Assembly: GCA_030706745.1 (NCBI GenBank)
Contig: JAUZNX010000001.1
Location: 186,001-250,000 of the forward strand
DNA: 64,000 nt
Source: Bacteroidota bacterium
GTDB taxonomy: Bacteria > Bacteroidota > Ignavibacteria > Palsa-1295
Direction: 5' to 3'
Shown here: positions 35,019 to 49,640 of the stretch, in pieces
Position numbering within the stretch: the stretch's first letter is position 1
How the letters are laid out: each line of letters begins with the position of its first letter
Program-made: the position numbers and the translations under genes
Notes under the pieces: model-generated
Database searches by the model: none
Told to the model about the DNA's origin: nothing
What the model saw: only the letters and a program-made list of their open reading frames with translations

Positions 35019-36446
35019 TTGGAACATTTCATCCTCGGCGAAATCGGAACACTGCTCGCGCCCACGCTTAGCGTGCTCAGCGCGATCCTCTATTTCGTCA
35101 TTACGATTTTCGTACTTGTTAGCGTTCACGAATTCGGTCATTTTATCGCCGGCCGCATTTTTGGCATGCGGGTACCGATCTATTCCATCGGCATGGGCCA
35201 GCGTGTCTTTGGGTGGAATAAGATCGACGGACTCACCTTCGGAGGACTCCGTCCGGAAACGGAAATTCAGCTCACCGCCAATACCGATTACCGCCTTTCC
35301 GCATTGCCCATCGGCGGATATGCTAAAATCGAGGGCATGATCGATGAAACTCAGAGCGAGGCACTCCCCGCCGAAATTCAGCCCTGGGAATTCCGCGCGA
35401 AGCCCTGGTGGCAGAAGACGATCGTCATTCTCGCCGGCGTGATTATGAATACGCTCCTGGCATGGGGCATTTTCGCCGGACATAACTTCGCAATTGGTGA
35501 AGACATGCGCATGACCACGACCGTTGGCTCGGTCGATCATGCCTCGCAATCGAAAGCTGCCGGTGTCATGCCCGGTGATAAAATTGTCGCCATTGATGGC
35601 AAGCCGGTCGACAACTGGGAAGAGATTGGCCGCGATGCCATTCTCCAGCATGTCGGGAAGGATTTTGCGATCACATACACACGTGATGGTCGCGAGTTCG
35701 AAGTGGCGTATCACACAGCGAAGATGGCTTCGCCAGATGATATTGCCATTGCTCTCGGACTGACACCAATCGGCTACGGTCCACCGAGTATTGGCGAAGT
35801 CCTGAAGAACACTCCTGCAGAACATGCGGGACTTAAAGCTGGTGATGTCATCACCCACATCGAGGGCGACACCGTTGCTGGATCGGAATCGCTCATCGCG
35901 CACATCAGTGCCAATCCGCTGAAGCCGATTCCGTTGGAGTGGCGCCGTGAAGGACAGGTAATGTCGACAACTATCACGCCGGATGCCACCGGCAAGATTG
36001 GCATTCAAGTGATGGGCGCCCCCTACACTGGGCCCCGCAAACACGTCGATTATTCCATCCCGCAAGCCGCTGGAATTGGGTGGACTCAGCTTTCCACGTA
36101 TGCCGCGCTCACAGTAAAAATGATCGGCACGGTCATCACAGGAAAGACGCCTGTTTCTCATGCCCTTGGCGGTCCGATCAAGATTGCACAGTTGGCATCC
36201 CAAAGCGCGCAGGGCGGCTTCGAGTCCTTCGTGCTCTTTATGGCGCTGCTGTCGCTATCGCTCGCGATGCTGAACGTCCTGCCGATTCCCGCGCTCGATG
36301 GTGGACACTTGCTCATCATTCTGGTCGAAGCCGTGATCGGTCACGAACTCTCGCAGCGGTTCAAACTCGGATTCCAACGTGTCGGAGTGGCAATTCTCCT
36401 TTCGCTGATGCTCTTTATGGTCATCAACGATATCCGAAGCCTTTAA
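35019..36446 (+). CDS. rseP: RseP-type site-2 intramembrane protease
   Basis: 475 residues, with a TTG start (no upstream ATG). It is a membrane zinc metalloprotease that in known bacteria cuts anti-sigma factors within the membrane. HEFGH (residues 37-41) lies in the first transmembrane helix, the second metal motif is LPIPALDGGHL near residue 425, and two PDZ domains are suggested by VMPGDKIVAIDGKPV and LKAGDVITHIEGDTV (about 187 and 272). The gene follows dxr, a common neighbour in Bacteroidota and many other bacteria. It may act on the sigma partner encoded at 45817, which is speculation. Confidence 0.93.
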   Translation: MEHFILGEIGTLLAPTLSVLSAILYFVITIFVLVSVHEFGHFIAGRIFGMRVPIYSIGMGQRVFGWNKIDGLTFGGLRPETEIQLTANTDYRLSALPIGGYAKIEGMIDETQSEALPAEIQPWEFRAKPWWQKTIVILAGVIMNTLLAWGIFAGHNFAIGEDMRMTTTVGSVDHASQSKAAGVMPGDKIVAIDGKPVDNWEEIGRDAILQHVGKDFAITYTRDGREFEVAYHTAKMASPDDIAIALGLTPIGYGPPSIGEVLKNTPAEHAGLKAGDVITHIEGDTVAGSESLIAHISANPLKPIPLEWRREGQVMSTTITPDATGKIGIQVMGAPYTGPRKHVDYSIPQAAGIGWTQLSTYAALTVKMIGTVITGKTPVSHALGGPIKIAQLASQSAQGGFESFVLFMALLSLSLAMLNVLPIPALDGGHLLIILVEAVIGHELSQRFKLGFQRVGVAILLSLMLFMVINDIRSL

Positions 36447-44151: not shown

Positions 44152-45006
44152 CTACTCACGCATGAACTTCAGCAGTTGATTATCAAGCCGTGCGAAATAG
44201 CACCCGCGAGGAAACGAAAAGACTGAAACTTGAAGACTTGTTTCTCCAATAGGAATTGGCATGGTCTTCATTGCTTGTCCGAGGACATTGATAATCAAGA
44301 AGGTTTTTGGTGATTGGGTTTCCGGGAAAGAAACCCTGAGCAAATCGGGACCGTCATTTGAAATACCCAGAATGCTAACCACCTGACGAATCACCGAGGC
44401 TGAGGGAATCGGTATTACTTGAATTGAAATGCTGTCGCCTAGATATCCCTGATAACTCCATCCTCCCTGCTCCATACCATTAGCATGTTTCTCCGAATAT
44501 TGCGCCCATGCCGAAATGAAACCGGAATAATGTCCGAGCGTCGTTATGATCCCCGACTGCGAATCCAAGACAAAGGGTATTGAATCAAATGTAAATTGAT
44601 AACCGTCACCCACACTGCTCAATCCATTGTTCTTGACATCGCTGTTTCCGAAGACAACGTTTCGAAATTGGTGTAATGATCGATCGATGGTGAATCTGCA
44701 CCCCTCATTGGTACCCGCTTTTCCCGAAACTGCAACACTATTCACGTTTGCGAGTCTGCTGGTGCCATCGAAATCCAGAGAGATACCACCTGAAACCGTA
44801 TGACCGCTTCCAGCTCCAGCAGGGGTAACCGTTGTAGTGTATGAGTAAGACAGCCCCATGGCTCGCGTTCTTACCTGGACCAGGATGCTATCGGTTTGCG
44901 CCTTAACTGTACAAGGAAGCGCCGTAAGAAAGAGAACCGATAGAAACCGCCACATCATATAATGAAAGAAACGTTCAATTCTGGTGTTCATTCCGTGAGG
45001 ATTCAT
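44152..45006 (-). CDS. Secreted protein with T9SS-like C-terminus
   Basis: 284 residues. The signal peptide is best placed in MWRFLSVLFLTALPCTVKAQ (the true start may be one of the first three ATG codons). Beta-rich body of about 180 residues, then a C-terminal domain with FPETQSPKTFLIINVLGQAMKT, FPRGCYFARLDN and final KFMRE. The ending GCYFARL is shared with the gene at 12847-13641, and both proteins are similar in size, so they probably belong to one family. Divergent from the ECF sigma factor gene with 124 bases between. Confidence 0.6.
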   Translation of the reverse strand: MNPHGMNTRIERFFHYMMWRFLSVLFLTALPCTVKAQTDSILVQVRTRAMGLSYSYTTTVTPAGAGSGHTVSGGISLDFDGTSRLANVNSVAVSGKAGTNEGCRFTIDRSLHQFRNVVFGNSDVKNNGLSSVGDGYQFTFDSIPFVLDSQSGIITTLGHYSGFISAWAQYSEKHANGMEQGGWSYQGYLGDSISIQVIPIPSASVIRQVVSILGISNDGPDLLRVSFPETQSPKTFLIINVLGQAMKTMPIPIGETSLQVSVFSFPRGCYFARLDNQLLKFMRE

Positions 45007-45130
45007 TATTGACCTTCAAGATCGGTGAGTCTTTGACTTCGACACTTACTCAAGAAAAATAGCCGACTTTCCCTGCCACCTTTTCCCCGCTTGATCCTCT
45101 TACCCATTGTAACCGCGGTACACTTTACGC

Positions 45131-45820
45131 ATGGACCTAACAAAAGAGCACGGTGCATCCTCGCTGGATGATGCCGTAAGGGAAGACGATGCATCGCACC
45201 ATGGGTGCGAGCCCCGGCGCGAATTTCTCGCGCTGCTCGGGCCGTGTCTTCCCGCGCTCAACCGGTTCGCGCTGGCGATGTGCCGCGATAAACGCGTATG
45301 CGATCATGAGGCCGCCAAAGACCTCGTGAGTGAGACAGTGTTGAAGGCGTTCGAGAGTTTCGAGCGCGTCAGGGAGCACAAGGCTTTCCTCAGCTATCTA
45401 TTCACAATCGCCTTACGCATCCACCGGCACGAGCAAAAGCGACGCGCGATCTGGCTGCCGCTCGCTAAAGAGCATGCGAACCATCACGCTGAAACGAGCG
45501 CACCTGACGCCGGAGCCGATACCGCGCAGCTTTATGCCGCGCTCGCACGGTTGCCCAAAGAGCAGCGCGAAGCCATTGTCATGAGCGAGATCGTGGGGCT
45601 GAGTCTGGCAGAAGTAGCGGAGGCGCAATCTGCGTCGCTCTCGGCGGTGAAGACTCGGGTCTCCCGGGGCCGCAAACGGCTCGGGAAGCTGCTCGGAGTT
45701 GAGGATGACGCCGTACAATCTGTCACGGCGTTCGCTCCTGTCAGCACCAATGGTCTCAGCACTAACGGCAACGGCAGCTATCATGCCCGGTTGGCATTTC
45801 AGGCAAAGGAAAAATTATGA
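45131..45820 (+). CDS. ECF-type RNA polymerase sigma factor
   Basis: 229 residues. Sigma-2 region about 35-105 (DHEAAKDLVSETVLKAFESFERVREHKAFLSYLFTIALRIHRHEQKRR) and sigma-4 region about 138-192 (ARLPKEQREAIVMSEIVGLSLAEVAEAQSASLSAVKTRVSRGRKRLGKLL), which binds the -35 element. The first 30 residues and the last 35 (Asn/Thr/Ser-rich) are extra. It overlaps the next gene by four bases (ATGA), typical of a sigma factor with its controlling partner. In Bacteroidota, ECF factors such as SigP govern T9SS genes; whether this one does is an inference from its unusual partner. Confidence 0.93.
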   Translation: MDLTKEHGASSLDDAVREDDASHHGCEPRREFLALLGPCLPALNRFALAMCRDKRVCDHEAAKDLVSETVLKAFESFERVREHKAFLSYLFTIALRIHRHEQKRRAIWLPLAKEHANHHAETSAPDAGADTAQLYAALARLPKEQREAIVMSEIVGLSLAEVAEAQSASLSAVKTRVSRGRKRLGKLLGVEDDAVQSVTAFAPVSTNGLSTNGNGSYHARLAFQAKEKL

Positions 45821-47292
45821 GCGACAACTCTCTCAACGATCTTTTCAAAGCCTCACGCAATGAGGCCGTGCCGGAATTTGTGTCCGAGCGCGATGCCGAA
45901 CGCCTGCTCGCCGAGCATCCCATGCGTAGTGTACCAAGGACAATCGGGCAGAAGCTATTCCAGCGGCTGCTCTCCTCTCCACGTAAACTTGGGATCACAG
46001 CCATGACAGTAGCAGGGATTATCACGATCGGGATTCTGGCGCTTCAGCCGCATCAAACGCAGAATTCTTCGAATATCCAATCGCCGAAGGCACAATCGTT
46101 CGCCGCGATCGATACCACTTCGGCAAAGACACCAACGCGAGTCGTGCGAAAAACCCTACGATTCGCGTTTGCCGATTCTTCAGCGCTTCCCGCGTTGCCG
46201 CCGCTGCCACCCTTGCCAGCAACACCACCGATCCCACCGCTGCCAGCAGTGGCAATTCATCCGGTCGAACTCGCGCCAGAGCAGTTAGCGCAACTCGGCG
46301 TCGTGCTAAAAGACAATGGCGATATTGATTTTTATACCAAGGATAGTCTTGCAATAGATGGAGACACAGGTTATGTTAACCACTATGGCTTGCCGCCTAC
46401 CTGGGGATTGCGAATCCATTTGTTGGCACATGCCCCTCGATTGACAGCGAACGCTCTGCCTGAGCTTCACATTCTTCCGTCTCCGCCAAAGTTAATCACA
46501 GCGACAAATGGGACGAAGCGTCTCTTCTCGTTTCGAAGCAGCTTTGCTCTAAACAGGGGTCGATTTCATACGGAGACACTAAAAAGTTTTATCGGACCAA
46601 GTGGGACCTATGATGTGATCCCTGTCTTTGATGATGACAGCATCTATTCCACGCAGGTGGCGAATCAGTTGCTTAACCCGAACCACGCGTCACGCCAGTC
46701 TGAGGGGTCGATGAAAGTTGTTCTTAACCCTCAGAATGGGCCCCGCGATACTTCGGGCAACGACTTTACGAATTCTTTTGTGAAGCGCATGAACAAGCCA
46801 AACAAGGTCTTCGACGCACCTGACCCTGTGGACACGGAATACAACGCATTCATCGACAACTCGGATGCGATCAATCGCCTCATCCCGATCCACATCCATA
46901 ACGCGAACAATCCCGACCACGTGAACGACCTGATCTTCTGGTACGAGCCGACCGCTGACATTACAAATCTGGTGAAAGAGGCCGCATCACAAGAATTGAG
47001 TGTATCAGAGAACACGCACGTTGCGACTTCCCGGCAGCCACACTTCACGCTCTCGATCTTCCCAAACCCCACGAGCGGCGCGGCAAAAGTACACTACACG
47101 ATCGATGGCGGCAAAGAAGCCGAGTTCGGCGTCTACAATCTACTCGGACAAAAGCTGATCGATGCCGGCACAGCCTCCGGCACTGGCGATCTCTCGCTCG
47201 ATCTTTCGAAGCTTGAAGCGGGAGTCTATCTTCTCGTCACCTCGACAAAGGATGGCGAGCAGAGCATCGAGCGGATTGTACTGAATAAGTAG
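45817..47292 (+). CDS. Membrane-anchored candidate anti-sigma protein with T9SS-like sorting domain
   Basis: 491 residues. N-terminal cytoplasmic part about 1-55 (helical, Arg/Glu-rich), one membrane helix at about 58-76 (LGITAMTVAGIITIGILAL), a Pro/Leu-rich stalk at 122-146, an extracytoplasmic body, and a C-terminal domain at 408-491 (IFPNPTSG, FGVYNLLGQKLI, GVYLLVTS and ERIVLNK) of the T9SS type A kind. It starts inside the sigma gene stop (ATGA), so translation is coupled. Position and layout suggest an anti-sigma or sensor, but no known anti-sigma motif (such as the zinc HxxxCxxC) is present in the N-terminus. A sorting domain on a non-cleaved membrane protein is unusual. Confidence 0.75.
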   Translation: MSDNSLNDLFKASRNEAVPEFVSERDAERLLAEHPMRSVPRTIGQKLFQRLLSSPRKLGITAMTVAGIITIGILALQPHQTQNSSNIQSPKAQSFAAIDTTSAKTPTRVVRKTLRFAFADSSALPALPPLPPLPATPPIPPLPAVAIHPVELAPEQLAQLGVVLKDNGDIDFYTKDSLAIDGDTGYVNHYGLPPTWGLRIHLLAHAPRLTANALPELHILPSPPKLITATNGTKRLFSFRSSFALNRGRFHTETLKSFIGPSGTYDVIPVFDDDSIYSTQVANQLLNPNHASRQSEGSMKVVLNPQNGPRDTSGNDFTNSFVKRMNKPNKVFDAPDPVDTEYNAFIDNSDAINRLIPIHIHNANNPDHVNDLIFWYEPTADITNLVKEAASQELSVSENTHVATSRQPHFTLSIFPNPTSGAAKVHYTIDGGKEAEFGVYNLLGQKLIDAGTASGTGDLSLDLSKLEAGVYLLVTSTKDGEQSIERIVLNK

Positions 47293-47314
47293 GTCGCAAA
47301 TACAGTGCGACGGG

Positions 47315-47407
47315 ATTCCCAGGGTTCCGCTACGCTCCACCCTGGGCTACACACCAAGACAATTGTGGTCATTAGCCCAGGGTGGAGTTGAAACGGAACC
47401 CTGGAAT
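47315..47407. repeat. Inverted-repeat element between sigma-partner gene and tmk
   Basis: The left arm (47315-47350) and the reverse complement of the right arm (47371-47407) agree for most of 35 positions, with the shared words AGGGTTCCG and CTCCACCCTGGGCTA. It lies between convergent genes. It may also act as a two-way terminator, although no T-run follows. Similar sequences are, from memory, common as dispersed repeats in several phyla. Confidence 0.75.
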
Positions 47408-47433
47408 CACGAAACCGAAGATAACAGGAGTCT

Positions 47434-48138
47434 TTAACTCGCCAGCGCCTCGGCAGTTACGTCGAAGCTGAAGGCGAACGACTCAGTTGCCGGCACGCTC
47501 GCGATGTGATGAGCGTGCCGTAAGTCGTTTCCCCGCTCGTACTCCACGAGGCGATAGATTACATGATGAATGTCTTCCATCGAGTCGGTGCCATCGATAA
47601 CGTGAATGCGGTCCGGCTGCTTTTGGGCCTGTGCCATATAGCCCTGGATCACATGGTTGAAGAAGACGCGGCTTTCGGCTTCCATGCGGTCATCGCCCAT
47701 TCCTTTGCGGCGATGAACGGCCAGTTCGATCGGCACATCGATCAGGAATGTGAGGTCCGGCACCAGACCGCCGGTAGCCACATCGTTGATCGTGCGAATG
47801 TGCGCGAGCGGCAGCCCGCGGCCATAGCCCTGATAGGCAATCGTCGAATCGGTGAAGCGATCGCAAATCACGACGGCCTCGCGAGCGAGTGCGGGTTCGA
47901 TAACTTCTTTGACGAGTTGTGCGCGGCTGGCGGCAAAGAGCAGAAGTTCTGCAGTCGAGGAGAGTGGCATCGAGTGCTTCTCGTTCAAGAGAATAGAACG
48001 AATATGTTCGGAAACATCGGTGCCACCAGGTTCGCGGACTAACAGGGTTTCGATCCCCGAATCTCTCAAGCGGTCCGCGAGTAATTGGGCTTGAGATGAC
48101 TTACCACAACCATCGATACCTTCAAACGTAATGAGCAT
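47434..48138 (-). CDS. tmk: Thymidylate kinase
   Basis: 234 residues from ATG 48138. AAGGAG lies five bases before it, which rules out the longer frame to 48201. The enzyme phosphorylates dTMP to dTDP in the cytoplasm. Signatures: FEGIDGCGKSSQAQLLADRL (P-loop), VREPGGTDVSEHIRSILL, DRFTDSTIAYQGYGRGLP and TFLIDVPIELAVHRRK. The C-terminus (about 205-234) extends about 25 residues beyond the usual length of 210. Confidence 0.96.
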   Translation of the reverse strand: MLITFEGIDGCGKSSQAQLLADRLRDSGIETLLVREPGGTDVSEHIRSILLNEKHSMPLSSTAELLLFAASRAQLVKEVIEPALAREAVVICDRFTDSTIAYQGYGRGLPLAHIRTINDVATGGLVPDLTFLIDVPIELAVHRRKGMGDDRMEAESRVFFNHVIQGYMAQAQKQPDRIHVIDGTDSMEDIHHVIYRLVEYERGNDLRHAHHIASVPATESFAFSFDVTAEALAS

Positions 48139-48184
48139 GTGTTCTCCTTCTATGAGTGTTCGAAGCCTGTTGTGATCGAACCGC

Positions 48185-48257
48185 GTAGGGATTAACGGCA
48201 TTAATCCGATGGCATCAATCCCACTGTCAGAGAAGGGCTAATGCCATTAGCCCCTAC
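48185..48257. repeat. Palindromic repeat pair GTAGGGATTAA / GGGCTAATG
   Basis: GGGCTAATG-C-CATTAGCCC (48235-48253) is a perfect 9-bp palindrome. About 45 bases left lies a diverged relative, GTAGGGATTAACGGCATTAATCC. Related to the GTAGGGGC-type dispersed palindromes near 36701 and 49588. Confidence 0.55.
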
Positions 48258-48437: not shown

Positions 48438-48821
48438 CTACAATACCAGTATCTGCATCAGGTGATCGAGCTCAGCCGCAGGATCGGAGCAAAGTCCTGA
48501 ATGAACACTTGACATCTGAATGATCGTACTCTTCGGCGCGACAAGCCAGTGCCAGCGTTCGTGTTGTGGCAGTTGGGCGATCGGACCAGCGCCCGAAGAC
48601 CCCGCGCAGATCTTCGGTATTTGCTCGAGGTGTCGCTCAATCTCCGTGAGATCCACATTCGGCGCAAGTGCGAGCAACCGGTCTCGATCGAGTGCGACGC
48701 GCGCAGCGAGATATTTTTGTGTACGCGCGAAGACAATCACGCCGACGTTGATAAATTCTTCGCGATCGACGCGCGGCACCACACGGACCACTGCGTAATC
48801 AAATGATACTTGCTCGGGCAC
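48438..48821 (-). CDS. DUF3037 family protein
   Basis: 127 residues from GTG 48821. AGGAGG seven bases upstream fixes this start; the longer GTG at 48848 has none. The DUF3037 pattern is FDYAVVRVVPRVDREEFINVGVIVF near the N-terminus, followed by RVALDRDRLLALAPNVD. The family is often encoded beside HipA-like kinases, as here (overlap of 23 bases). Function unknown; it may be a partner or a toxin-antitoxin-like accessory, which is inference. Confidence 0.88.
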   Translation of the reverse strand: MPEQVSFDYAVVRVVPRVDREEFINVGVIVFARTQKYLAARVALDRDRLLALAPNVDLTEIERHLEQIPKICAGSSGAGPIAQLPQHERWHWLVAPKSTIIQMSSVHSGLCSDPAAELDHLMQILVL

Positions 48822-49566
48822 GAATCGCCTCCTCTTCAAAAATGTCACACGACGCCAGTCGGTGTATGAGATAATTCACATACGCCTCACGGTGCGCTTC
48901 GATGTTCGAAAATATGTTCTCCGAATCCAACCAATCATCCGGCACCAGTCCAACGATTCGTCTGATCTCGTCTTCGGCTATCATTTTTCTAGCGCCACGA
49001 ATATCGTGAGCAAATCGCAGCAGGACATGGTCCTTGATCTGCGCGAACGGGCTCCGAAATTTATCCTCGGCCGTCGGCCAGTTGTGATGGAAGAATAACG
49101 CGGCGCCATGATCGATCAAATACAGCTTCTTGTGCCAGACCAGCATATTTGTATTGCGCGCTGTGCGATCGATATTCGTGATGAACGCATCGAACCAAAC
49201 AATTGCCGATGCGAGAGCAGGATCGACATTGTTCGCGCTGGAATCGAATGAAATCGAACCCGGCAGATAATCCATTGCGAGGTTCAGTCCGGCGCTCGAT
49301 TGGATCAGCGATCGAATTTCGTAATCCGGCTCATTGCGGCCAAGGATAGGATCCAAATCCATCATCGCCAGTCGTGGCACCGGCAATCCAAGCAATCGGC
49401 CGAGCTCGCCGCAAATGAGTTCGGCGATGAGTGCCTTCTTGCCTTGCCCCGCTCCACGAAATTTCAGGACGTAGATGCCATCGTCGTCCGCCTCGACAAG
49501 CGCAGGCAGCGAGCCACCCTCGCGGAGCGGCATGACATAACGGGTGGCACGGAGCGTTTCGAGCAT
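48799..49566 (-). CDS. HipA-like kinase family protein
   Basis: 255 residues from ATG 49566 (277 from 49632, but the first 22 codons lie in a dispersed palindrome). Kinase-like features are GIYVLKFRGAGQGKKALIAELICGELGRLLGLPVPR (about 29-65, ATP loop and lysine), WFDAFITNIDRTARNTNMLVWHKKLYLIDHGAALFF (about 145-182, catalytic D-R-x-x-R-N-T-N and IDHG, a DFG-like step). HipA kinases are known toxins of type II systems, but this branch is usually paired with DUF3037 rather than HipB. No HipB-like gene is next to it. Confidence 0.8.
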   Translation of the reverse strand: MLETLRATRYVMPLREGGSLPALVEADDDGIYVLKFRGAGQGKKALIAELICGELGRLLGLPVPRLAMMDLDPILGRNEPDYEIRSLIQSSAGLNLAMDYLPGSISFDSSANNVDPALASAIVWFDAFITNIDRTARNTNMLVWHKKLYLIDHGAALFFHHNWPTAEDKFRSPFAQIKDHVLLRFAHDIRGARKMIAEDEIRRIVGLVPDDWLDSENIFSNIEAHREAYVNYLIHRLASCDIFEEEAIRARASII

Positions 49567-49587
49567 CGGGAGAATGGAACACAACAC

Positions 49588-49617
49588 GGCATAGGGACGT
49601 GCTCCGCACGCCCCTAC
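49588..49617. repeat. Palindromic repeat GGGACGTGC-TCC-GCACGCCCC
   Basis: Nine-base arms with one mismatch, close to the palindrome at 36701-36719. It sits across the region before the HipA-like start codon, supporting the shorter start at 49566. Confidence 0.55.
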
Positions 49618-49640
49618 TTCATCACAATTCAAAGATCACG

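Follow-up and report, generated by a model that had tools for sequence, protein, structure and literature searches.

An ECF sigma factor gene overlapping that of a putative membrane-bound anti-sigma factor with a C-terminal type IX secretion sorting domain

In the window, i.e., the whole 64,000-nucleotide stretch of DNA analyzed, the gene for an ECF sigma factor (P0001) overlaps the gene for a membrane protein (P0002) that carries a single internal transmembrane helix and ends in a type A sorting domain (CTD) of the type IX secretion system (T9SS). The pairing of an ECF gene with a CTD-ended membrane protein, made in the original prediction, is real and recurrent, and both open reading frames and their ATGA overlap lie where they had been placed. 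Judging from the position of its gene, from an N-terminal region shared with a second type of partner and from its co-divergence with the sigma factor, P0002 is, with good support, the putative anti-sigma factor of P0001. The pair may serve the cell as a sensor for the condition of its outer membrane or its T9SS.

Results

The gene pair and its surroundings

The features of the operon are as follows.

45074 to 45102, plus strand: ECF-type promoter-like motif TGCCACCTTTT-N12-CTCTTA, with its end 28 bp upstream of the sigma start codon (ATG)
45131 to 45820, plus strand: ECF sigma factor P0001, 229 aa (Pfam and NCBIfam matches)
45817 to 45820, plus strand: ATGA stop/start overlap, indicating translational coupling (sequence)
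45817 to 47292, plus strand: P0002, putative membrane-bound anti-sigma factor with C-terminal T9SS CTD, 491 aa
45817 to 45987, plus strand: P0002 N-terminal putative sigma-binding region, aa 1–57
45988 to 46044, plus strand: P0002 single transmembrane helix, aa 58–76 (hydropathy 2.22)
46177 to 46254, plus strand: P0002 Pro-rich stalk, aa 121–146, inside a low-confidence tether (sequence, pLDDT)
46264 to 47007, plus strand: P0002 predicted periplasmic domain, aa 150–240 and 337–397 (AF2 model)
47056 to 47283, plus strand: P0002 T9SS type A sorting domain (CTD), aa 414–489 (Pfam, NCBIfam, AF2)

P0001 matched Pfam Sigma70_r2 (9.9e-7, residues 40–96) and Sigma70_r4_2 (7.4e-15, residues 133–184) and scored above the cut-off for the NCBIfam sigma70-ECF superfamily; no curated family shown below the ECF superfamily level reached its cut-off, TIGR02985 giving 56.6 bits against a required 126.4. 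The two genes stand alone, as the flanking genes (44152–45006 and 47434–48201) are both on the opposite strand. The former, divergent from the operon, encodes a protein of 284 aa that looks secreted and has a degenerate CTD (E 0.17 for Por_Secre_tail, under the cut-off). Directly after the operon, positions 47312–47410 hold an inverted repeat (CCCAGGGTTCCG / CGGAACCCTGG), a terminator or a repeat element, and a gene for a HipA_2-type kinase is found at 48799–49632 on the minus strand. Elsewhere in the window, positions 35019–36446 encode RseP (M50 and PDZ domains).

The C-terminal domain of P0002 is a T9SS sorting domain

Residues 414–489 of P0002 matched both Por_Secre_tail (PF18962; 2.1e-9, 38 bits, cut-off 27) and TIGR04183 (1.2e-10, 41 bits, cut-off 23), the match stopping 2–3 residues short of the C-terminal end, and this was the only curated domain found in the protein with Pfam and NCBIfam. 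In the AF2 model, residues 410–489 form a seven-strand Ig fold with pLDDT mostly 89–95. Foldseek returned as the best match of the P0002 model the substrate CTD in the structure of the T9SS with NucA substrate (8glk_D; TM-score 0.78 by target length), the alignment profile matched 8glj_D, and the top rows of VIA-align were the CTDs of PorU and mirolase (Z 11.2 and 11.0). Since unrelated Ig folds, including complement Ig domains, came within one Z unit of these rows, the fold alone would not prove a T9SS CTD; the sequence profiles above their cut-offs, together with the best structural matches, identify it as one and rule out an unrelated Ig domain. The sorting domain expected at the C-terminus was thus found there, with a start at about 410–414 rather than at residue 408.

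All 34 CTD-ended partners collected from relatives (see below) carry one CTD at their extreme C-terminus, within about 8 residues of the end. Five of them (L078, L085, L087, L092, and L094) have two or three CTD modules each, the extra copies being internal, and these proteins contain two or three repeats of a unit made of an LVPI..WYxPTPEF motif and a CTD. A genuine T9SS signal is compatible with the terminal copy but not with the internal ones, as these cannot serve as terminal export signals, which keeps alive the view that the domain is a periplasmic sensor module; the Ig fold of the sorting domain is a common one and may have a structural role.

Topology, tether, and periplasmic domain

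P0002 has no N-terminal Sec signal peptide, and its sole hydrophobic segment (residues 58–76) comes after 57 residues. Five Lys/Arg residues lie within residues 40–57 and one in the 20 residues past the helix, and this asymmetry indicates, by the positive-inside rule, a cytoplasmic N-terminus. Both the helix and its orientation therefore agree with the original prediction, as does the Pro-rich stalk, which is evident from the sequence at about residues 121–146. P0002 contains no cysteine.

The AF2 model of the whole protein had a mean pLDDT of 67. Values fell below 50 in the tether (residues 80–124 and 135–140), ranged from 57 to 95 at residues 150–240 and were mostly 89–95 at 351–390, while residues 241–336 were of low confidence. 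The predicted periplasmic domain (150–240 and 337–397) contains the motif LIPI(H/R)..IFWYEPT, in which W375 is at least 90% conserved (nearly invariant in alignment A1, invariant in A5). A structural search gave no fold match of its own for this domain, the hits being filled by the CTD.

The N-terminal region and its putative role in sigma binding

In the AF2 model, the N-terminus of P0002 consists of helices at residues 4–16, 24–33, and 41–53. When profiles of the regions preceding the transmembrane helix were compared between CTD-type partners and the barrel-like partners described below, hhalign scored 30, against no more than 9 in 20 column-shuffled controls. The NCBIfam antisigma model matched few of the partners, and weakly; one family member matched over residues 7–100 with an E of 0.008, far below the cut-off. 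Distances between sigma factors correlated with those between partner N-termini beyond the share of the CTD (partial r 0.35), but the partial correlation for the CTD was likewise non-zero (0.27), so that co-divergence is weak evidence.

We also modeled a fused sigma/partner pair from an alignment (A7) of five naturally in-frame gene pairs supplemented with sigma-only rows. The modeled pair, L152, is of the same family, and its partner is cut by a contig end, so that its tail is not visible. The sigma factor was modeled well and the putative anti-sigma helices reached pLDDT of about 65–73, with no readable interface; a Foldseek search with this model retrieved sigma chains of ECF complexes, an outcome uninformative on binding. 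From the evidence of position, shared region and co-divergence, we infer that P0002 acts as an anti-sigma factor, with its N-terminal region as the putative sigma-binding part.

The pairing recurs in relatives

We collected 80 ECF loci from relatives and read the gene downstream of each. Of 36 partners picked by eye as CTD-ended, 34 matched Por_Secre_tail with an E of 0.01 or better, as compared with none of 28 picked as barrel-like or otherwise, and a home-made CTD profile also gave 34 CTD partners. In a tree of the sigma factors, in which some branches are long and several deep forks open, all 34 CTD-coupled members fell into a 67-row clade with support 100/99, and no CTD partner occurred among the 11 outgroup ECF rows. 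The proportion of 34 in 67 is a lower bound, since contig ends truncate four of the partners. Were the loci independent (they are not), its binomial probability would be about 1e-27, on the basis of approximately 150 CTD domains among roughly 3300 genes (the gene number being an estimate from the size of the genome). The exact four-base overlap (spacing −4) was present in 24 of the 34 CTD-type pairs. The sigma gene stays next to its partner in orthologues, as the original prediction required, and the recurrence rules out chance adjacency.

A scan of named genomes, partly the same as those of the first set, so that the counts are not additive, yielded 65 loci, about half of them with a CTD partner. 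NCBIfam supported the CTD in nearly all the loci checked, L151 missing an E of 0.01. The carriers include Candidatus Kapaibacterium (Kapabacteria), Ignavibacteria-labelled MAGs, a Roseivirga MAG, and the cultured Rufibacter latericius, Rufibacter sp., and Sabulibacter ruber, and the paired genes mostly overlap. No relatives were found in viral contigs.

Two types of tail on a common chassis

Most other partners in the 67-member clade are single-helix proteins of about 340 residues with barrel-like ends. Their assignment as barrels rests on aromatic C-termini (about half have W or F as the last residue, like outer-membrane barrels), on one member with a weak Pfam match to OMP_b-brl and on a weak match of their profile to designed beta-barrels. 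The CTD label changes ten times on the sigma tree by parsimony, at least five of these changes being forced by well-supported branches. The host genome itself has both types, namely two CTD-type pairs (that of the window and one on contig C12) and several barrel-type ones (contigs C1, C2, and C9). Similar N-termini and tail swaps within the sigma tree would be expected if either end met one and the same need, that of getting to the outer membrane; we infer that the tail has this role and can be exchanged.

At one further locus (L072:1533-3494; G015:C73), the sigma partner has a transmembrane helix, a TolB-like propeller, and a PorE / CHU_0125-like region. Its CTD match is only sub-threshold, and it represents, on this chassis, a third type of periplasmic tail.

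A promoter-like motif upstream of the sigma gene

The pattern TGC(C/G)ACCTTTT-N12-CTCTTA is common to the upstream regions of four orthologues of the window sigma gene. Its core, TGC[ACG]AC-N17-CTCT, was present in the 250 bp preceding the gene for 15 of the 34 CTD-coupled sigma genes but for none of the 39 of other types (Fisher P about 1e-6, for sequences that are related and hence not independent), and also for four of five sigma genes whose partner is cut. Motifs of this sort in front of ECF genes generally point to autoregulation. The exact fuller pattern occurs once in the host genome, at this operon, which implies either a narrow regulon or one with a more permissive pattern. With two mismatches allowed, 12 matches were obtained, as compared with 8 for a reversed control, and besides the exact site the only credible ones were upstream of two other ECF genes (C12:84452 and C1:489985). 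No T9SS gene with the motif was seen in the exact search or in the two-mismatch search of the host genome, the latter being near the control level.

The match on contig C1 (L242; G000:C1:489985-490013, minus strand), which directly precedes a barrel-type ECF gene, has the related sequence TGTGACTTTTTT...GTCACTTA and suggests a slightly different promoter for the barrel-type group.

T9SS genes and other CTD proteins of the host

The host genome encodes SprA (contig C3) and PorV-like proteins, the best at C2:370629, adjoined by a gene for a C25 peptidase of the PorU type (C2:368241), and it holds about 150 Por_Secre_tail domains. The GldM model TIGR03517 gave no match, its controls being likewise silent. 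SprA was present in 60 of the 61 genomes searched, and also in each of the four tested via named loci, including Rufibacter, Sabulibacter, and Roseivirga. Among 20 other CTD proteins sampled from the host genome, most have a clear signal-peptide-like segment within residues 1–35 (start codons are uncertain in a few), and none combines a cytoplasmic region with an internal helix at residues 55–80.

Discussion

Proposed mechanism and alternatives

The account that we favor, tentatively and at somewhat less than an even chance, is that P0002 is a T9SS-tailed counterpart of the Dual membrane-spanning anti-sigma (Dma) layout, described below. Its short N-terminal helical region would hold P0001 at the inner membrane, the chain would cross that membrane once, and the Pro-rich disordered tether with the small domain would span the periplasm. 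We hypothesize that the CTD either docks at SprA/PorV, in the T9SS machinery of the outer membrane, or is threaded through this machinery, in which case P0002 would bridge both membranes like Dma proteins with their C-terminal beta-barrel. The hypothetical signal would be a change in docking, when the translocon is jammed, absent, or busy or the envelope is damaged; this change might alter the state of the tether or its proteolysis and free the sigma factor, which would then transcribe its own operon. The sensing of T9SS state and the possible release through RseP put forward in the original prediction are likewise hypotheses. A bolder proposal, which we regard as rather doubtful, is that the T9SS tail of the inhibitor competes with cargo for PorV/SprA, so that translocon occupancy, relayed across the periplasm, sets sigma activity, and that barrel and CTD are exchangeable outer-membrane probes on a single sigma/anti-sigma chassis.

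P0002 could also be an anti-sigma factor whose CTD never meets the translocon and acts as a periplasmic Ig-type sensor or interaction module, sensing an envelope ligand together with the periplasmic domain. The repeated motif-plus-CTD units of the five multi-CTD partners and the nearly equal structural scores of Ig folds unrelated to T9SS speak for this possibility, which we nevertheless consider somewhat unlikely, as the sequence profile matches are specific to T9SS type A CTDs and exceed their cut-offs, a copy occupies the very C-terminus in every case, and SprA is present in the tested genomes that carry such pairs. That P0002 behaves as ordinary cargo is improbable. Its C-terminal part would then be exported as a surface protein and its CTD cut by PorU, and this cleavage followed by RseP-type proteolysis would free the sigma factor once. 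PorU normally cleaves CTDs, and both PorU-like C25 peptidases and RseP are encoded, but P0002 lacks a signal peptide and is predicted to stay anchored with its N-terminus inside. Least of all do we expect that P0002 is not an anti-sigma factor, the genes being merely co-transcribed and P0002 being either under the control of the sigma factor or a T9SS-related protein anchored in the membrane. The modest pLDDT of the N-terminal helices in the fused model and the few, weak antisigma matches would be in line with this, whereas dozens of loci repeat the pairing with tight spacing, and the N-terminal region is common to two partner types and diverges along with the sigma factor.

Relation to known systems

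Little is settled on how Bacteroidota keep watch over their outer membrane and T9SS, the known route being PorXY-SigP in Porphyromonas (PMC7712824). A family of T9SS-tailed anti-sigma factors would fill part of this gap and provide a direct wire from the cytoplasm to the cell surface, and would be testable in the cultured genera Rufibacter and Sabulibacter. In the literature searched (open-licence papers only), we found no description of an anti-sigma factor with a T9SS sorting domain. PorA of Porphyromonas gingivalis, a CTD protein whose CTD binds PorV and which feeds an ECF pathway via PorXY-SigP (PMC7712824), resembles P0002 in linking a CTD protein to ECF sigma signaling; unlike P0002, it is neither membrane-anchored nor encoded beside the sigma factor, but is a distinct surface protein that signals via a two-component system. 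The classical membrane anti-sigma factors RseA, RsiW, MucA, and CnrY are, like P0002, membrane-bound and encoded beside an ECF sigma factor, but have no outer-membrane or T9SS part. T9SS type A cargo shares with P0002 the C-terminal Por_Secre_tail, whereas P0002 has an internal membrane helix after a cytoplasmic region in place of an N-terminal signal peptide. The class I anti-sigma domain, of about 100 aa and four helices, was near only 6% of Bacteroidetes ECFs in one survey (PMC7406223); with about 57 aa and three short model helices, the N-terminus of P0002 is nearer to the short class II.

The original prediction mentions neither the barrel-like partners of the same sigma clade nor the closest known design. 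The latter is the Dma family, with an N-terminal anti-sigma domain, a transmembrane segment, a disordered tether, and a C-terminal beta-barrel (PMC13088901), to which we liken P0002 by layout alone, claiming no family membership. Both come from Bacteroidota and are encoded next to an ECF gene, and P0002 is predicted to combine, like Dma proteins, a putative N-terminal anti-sigma region with one transmembrane helix and a disordered tether. The partner of Dma is a sigma factor of the ECF21 group. P0001 reaches the cut-off of no curated family shown below the ECF superfamily level. In both, the C-terminal part is expected at the outer membrane, as a beta-barrel in Dma and as a T9SS CTD with a periplasmic domain in P0002.
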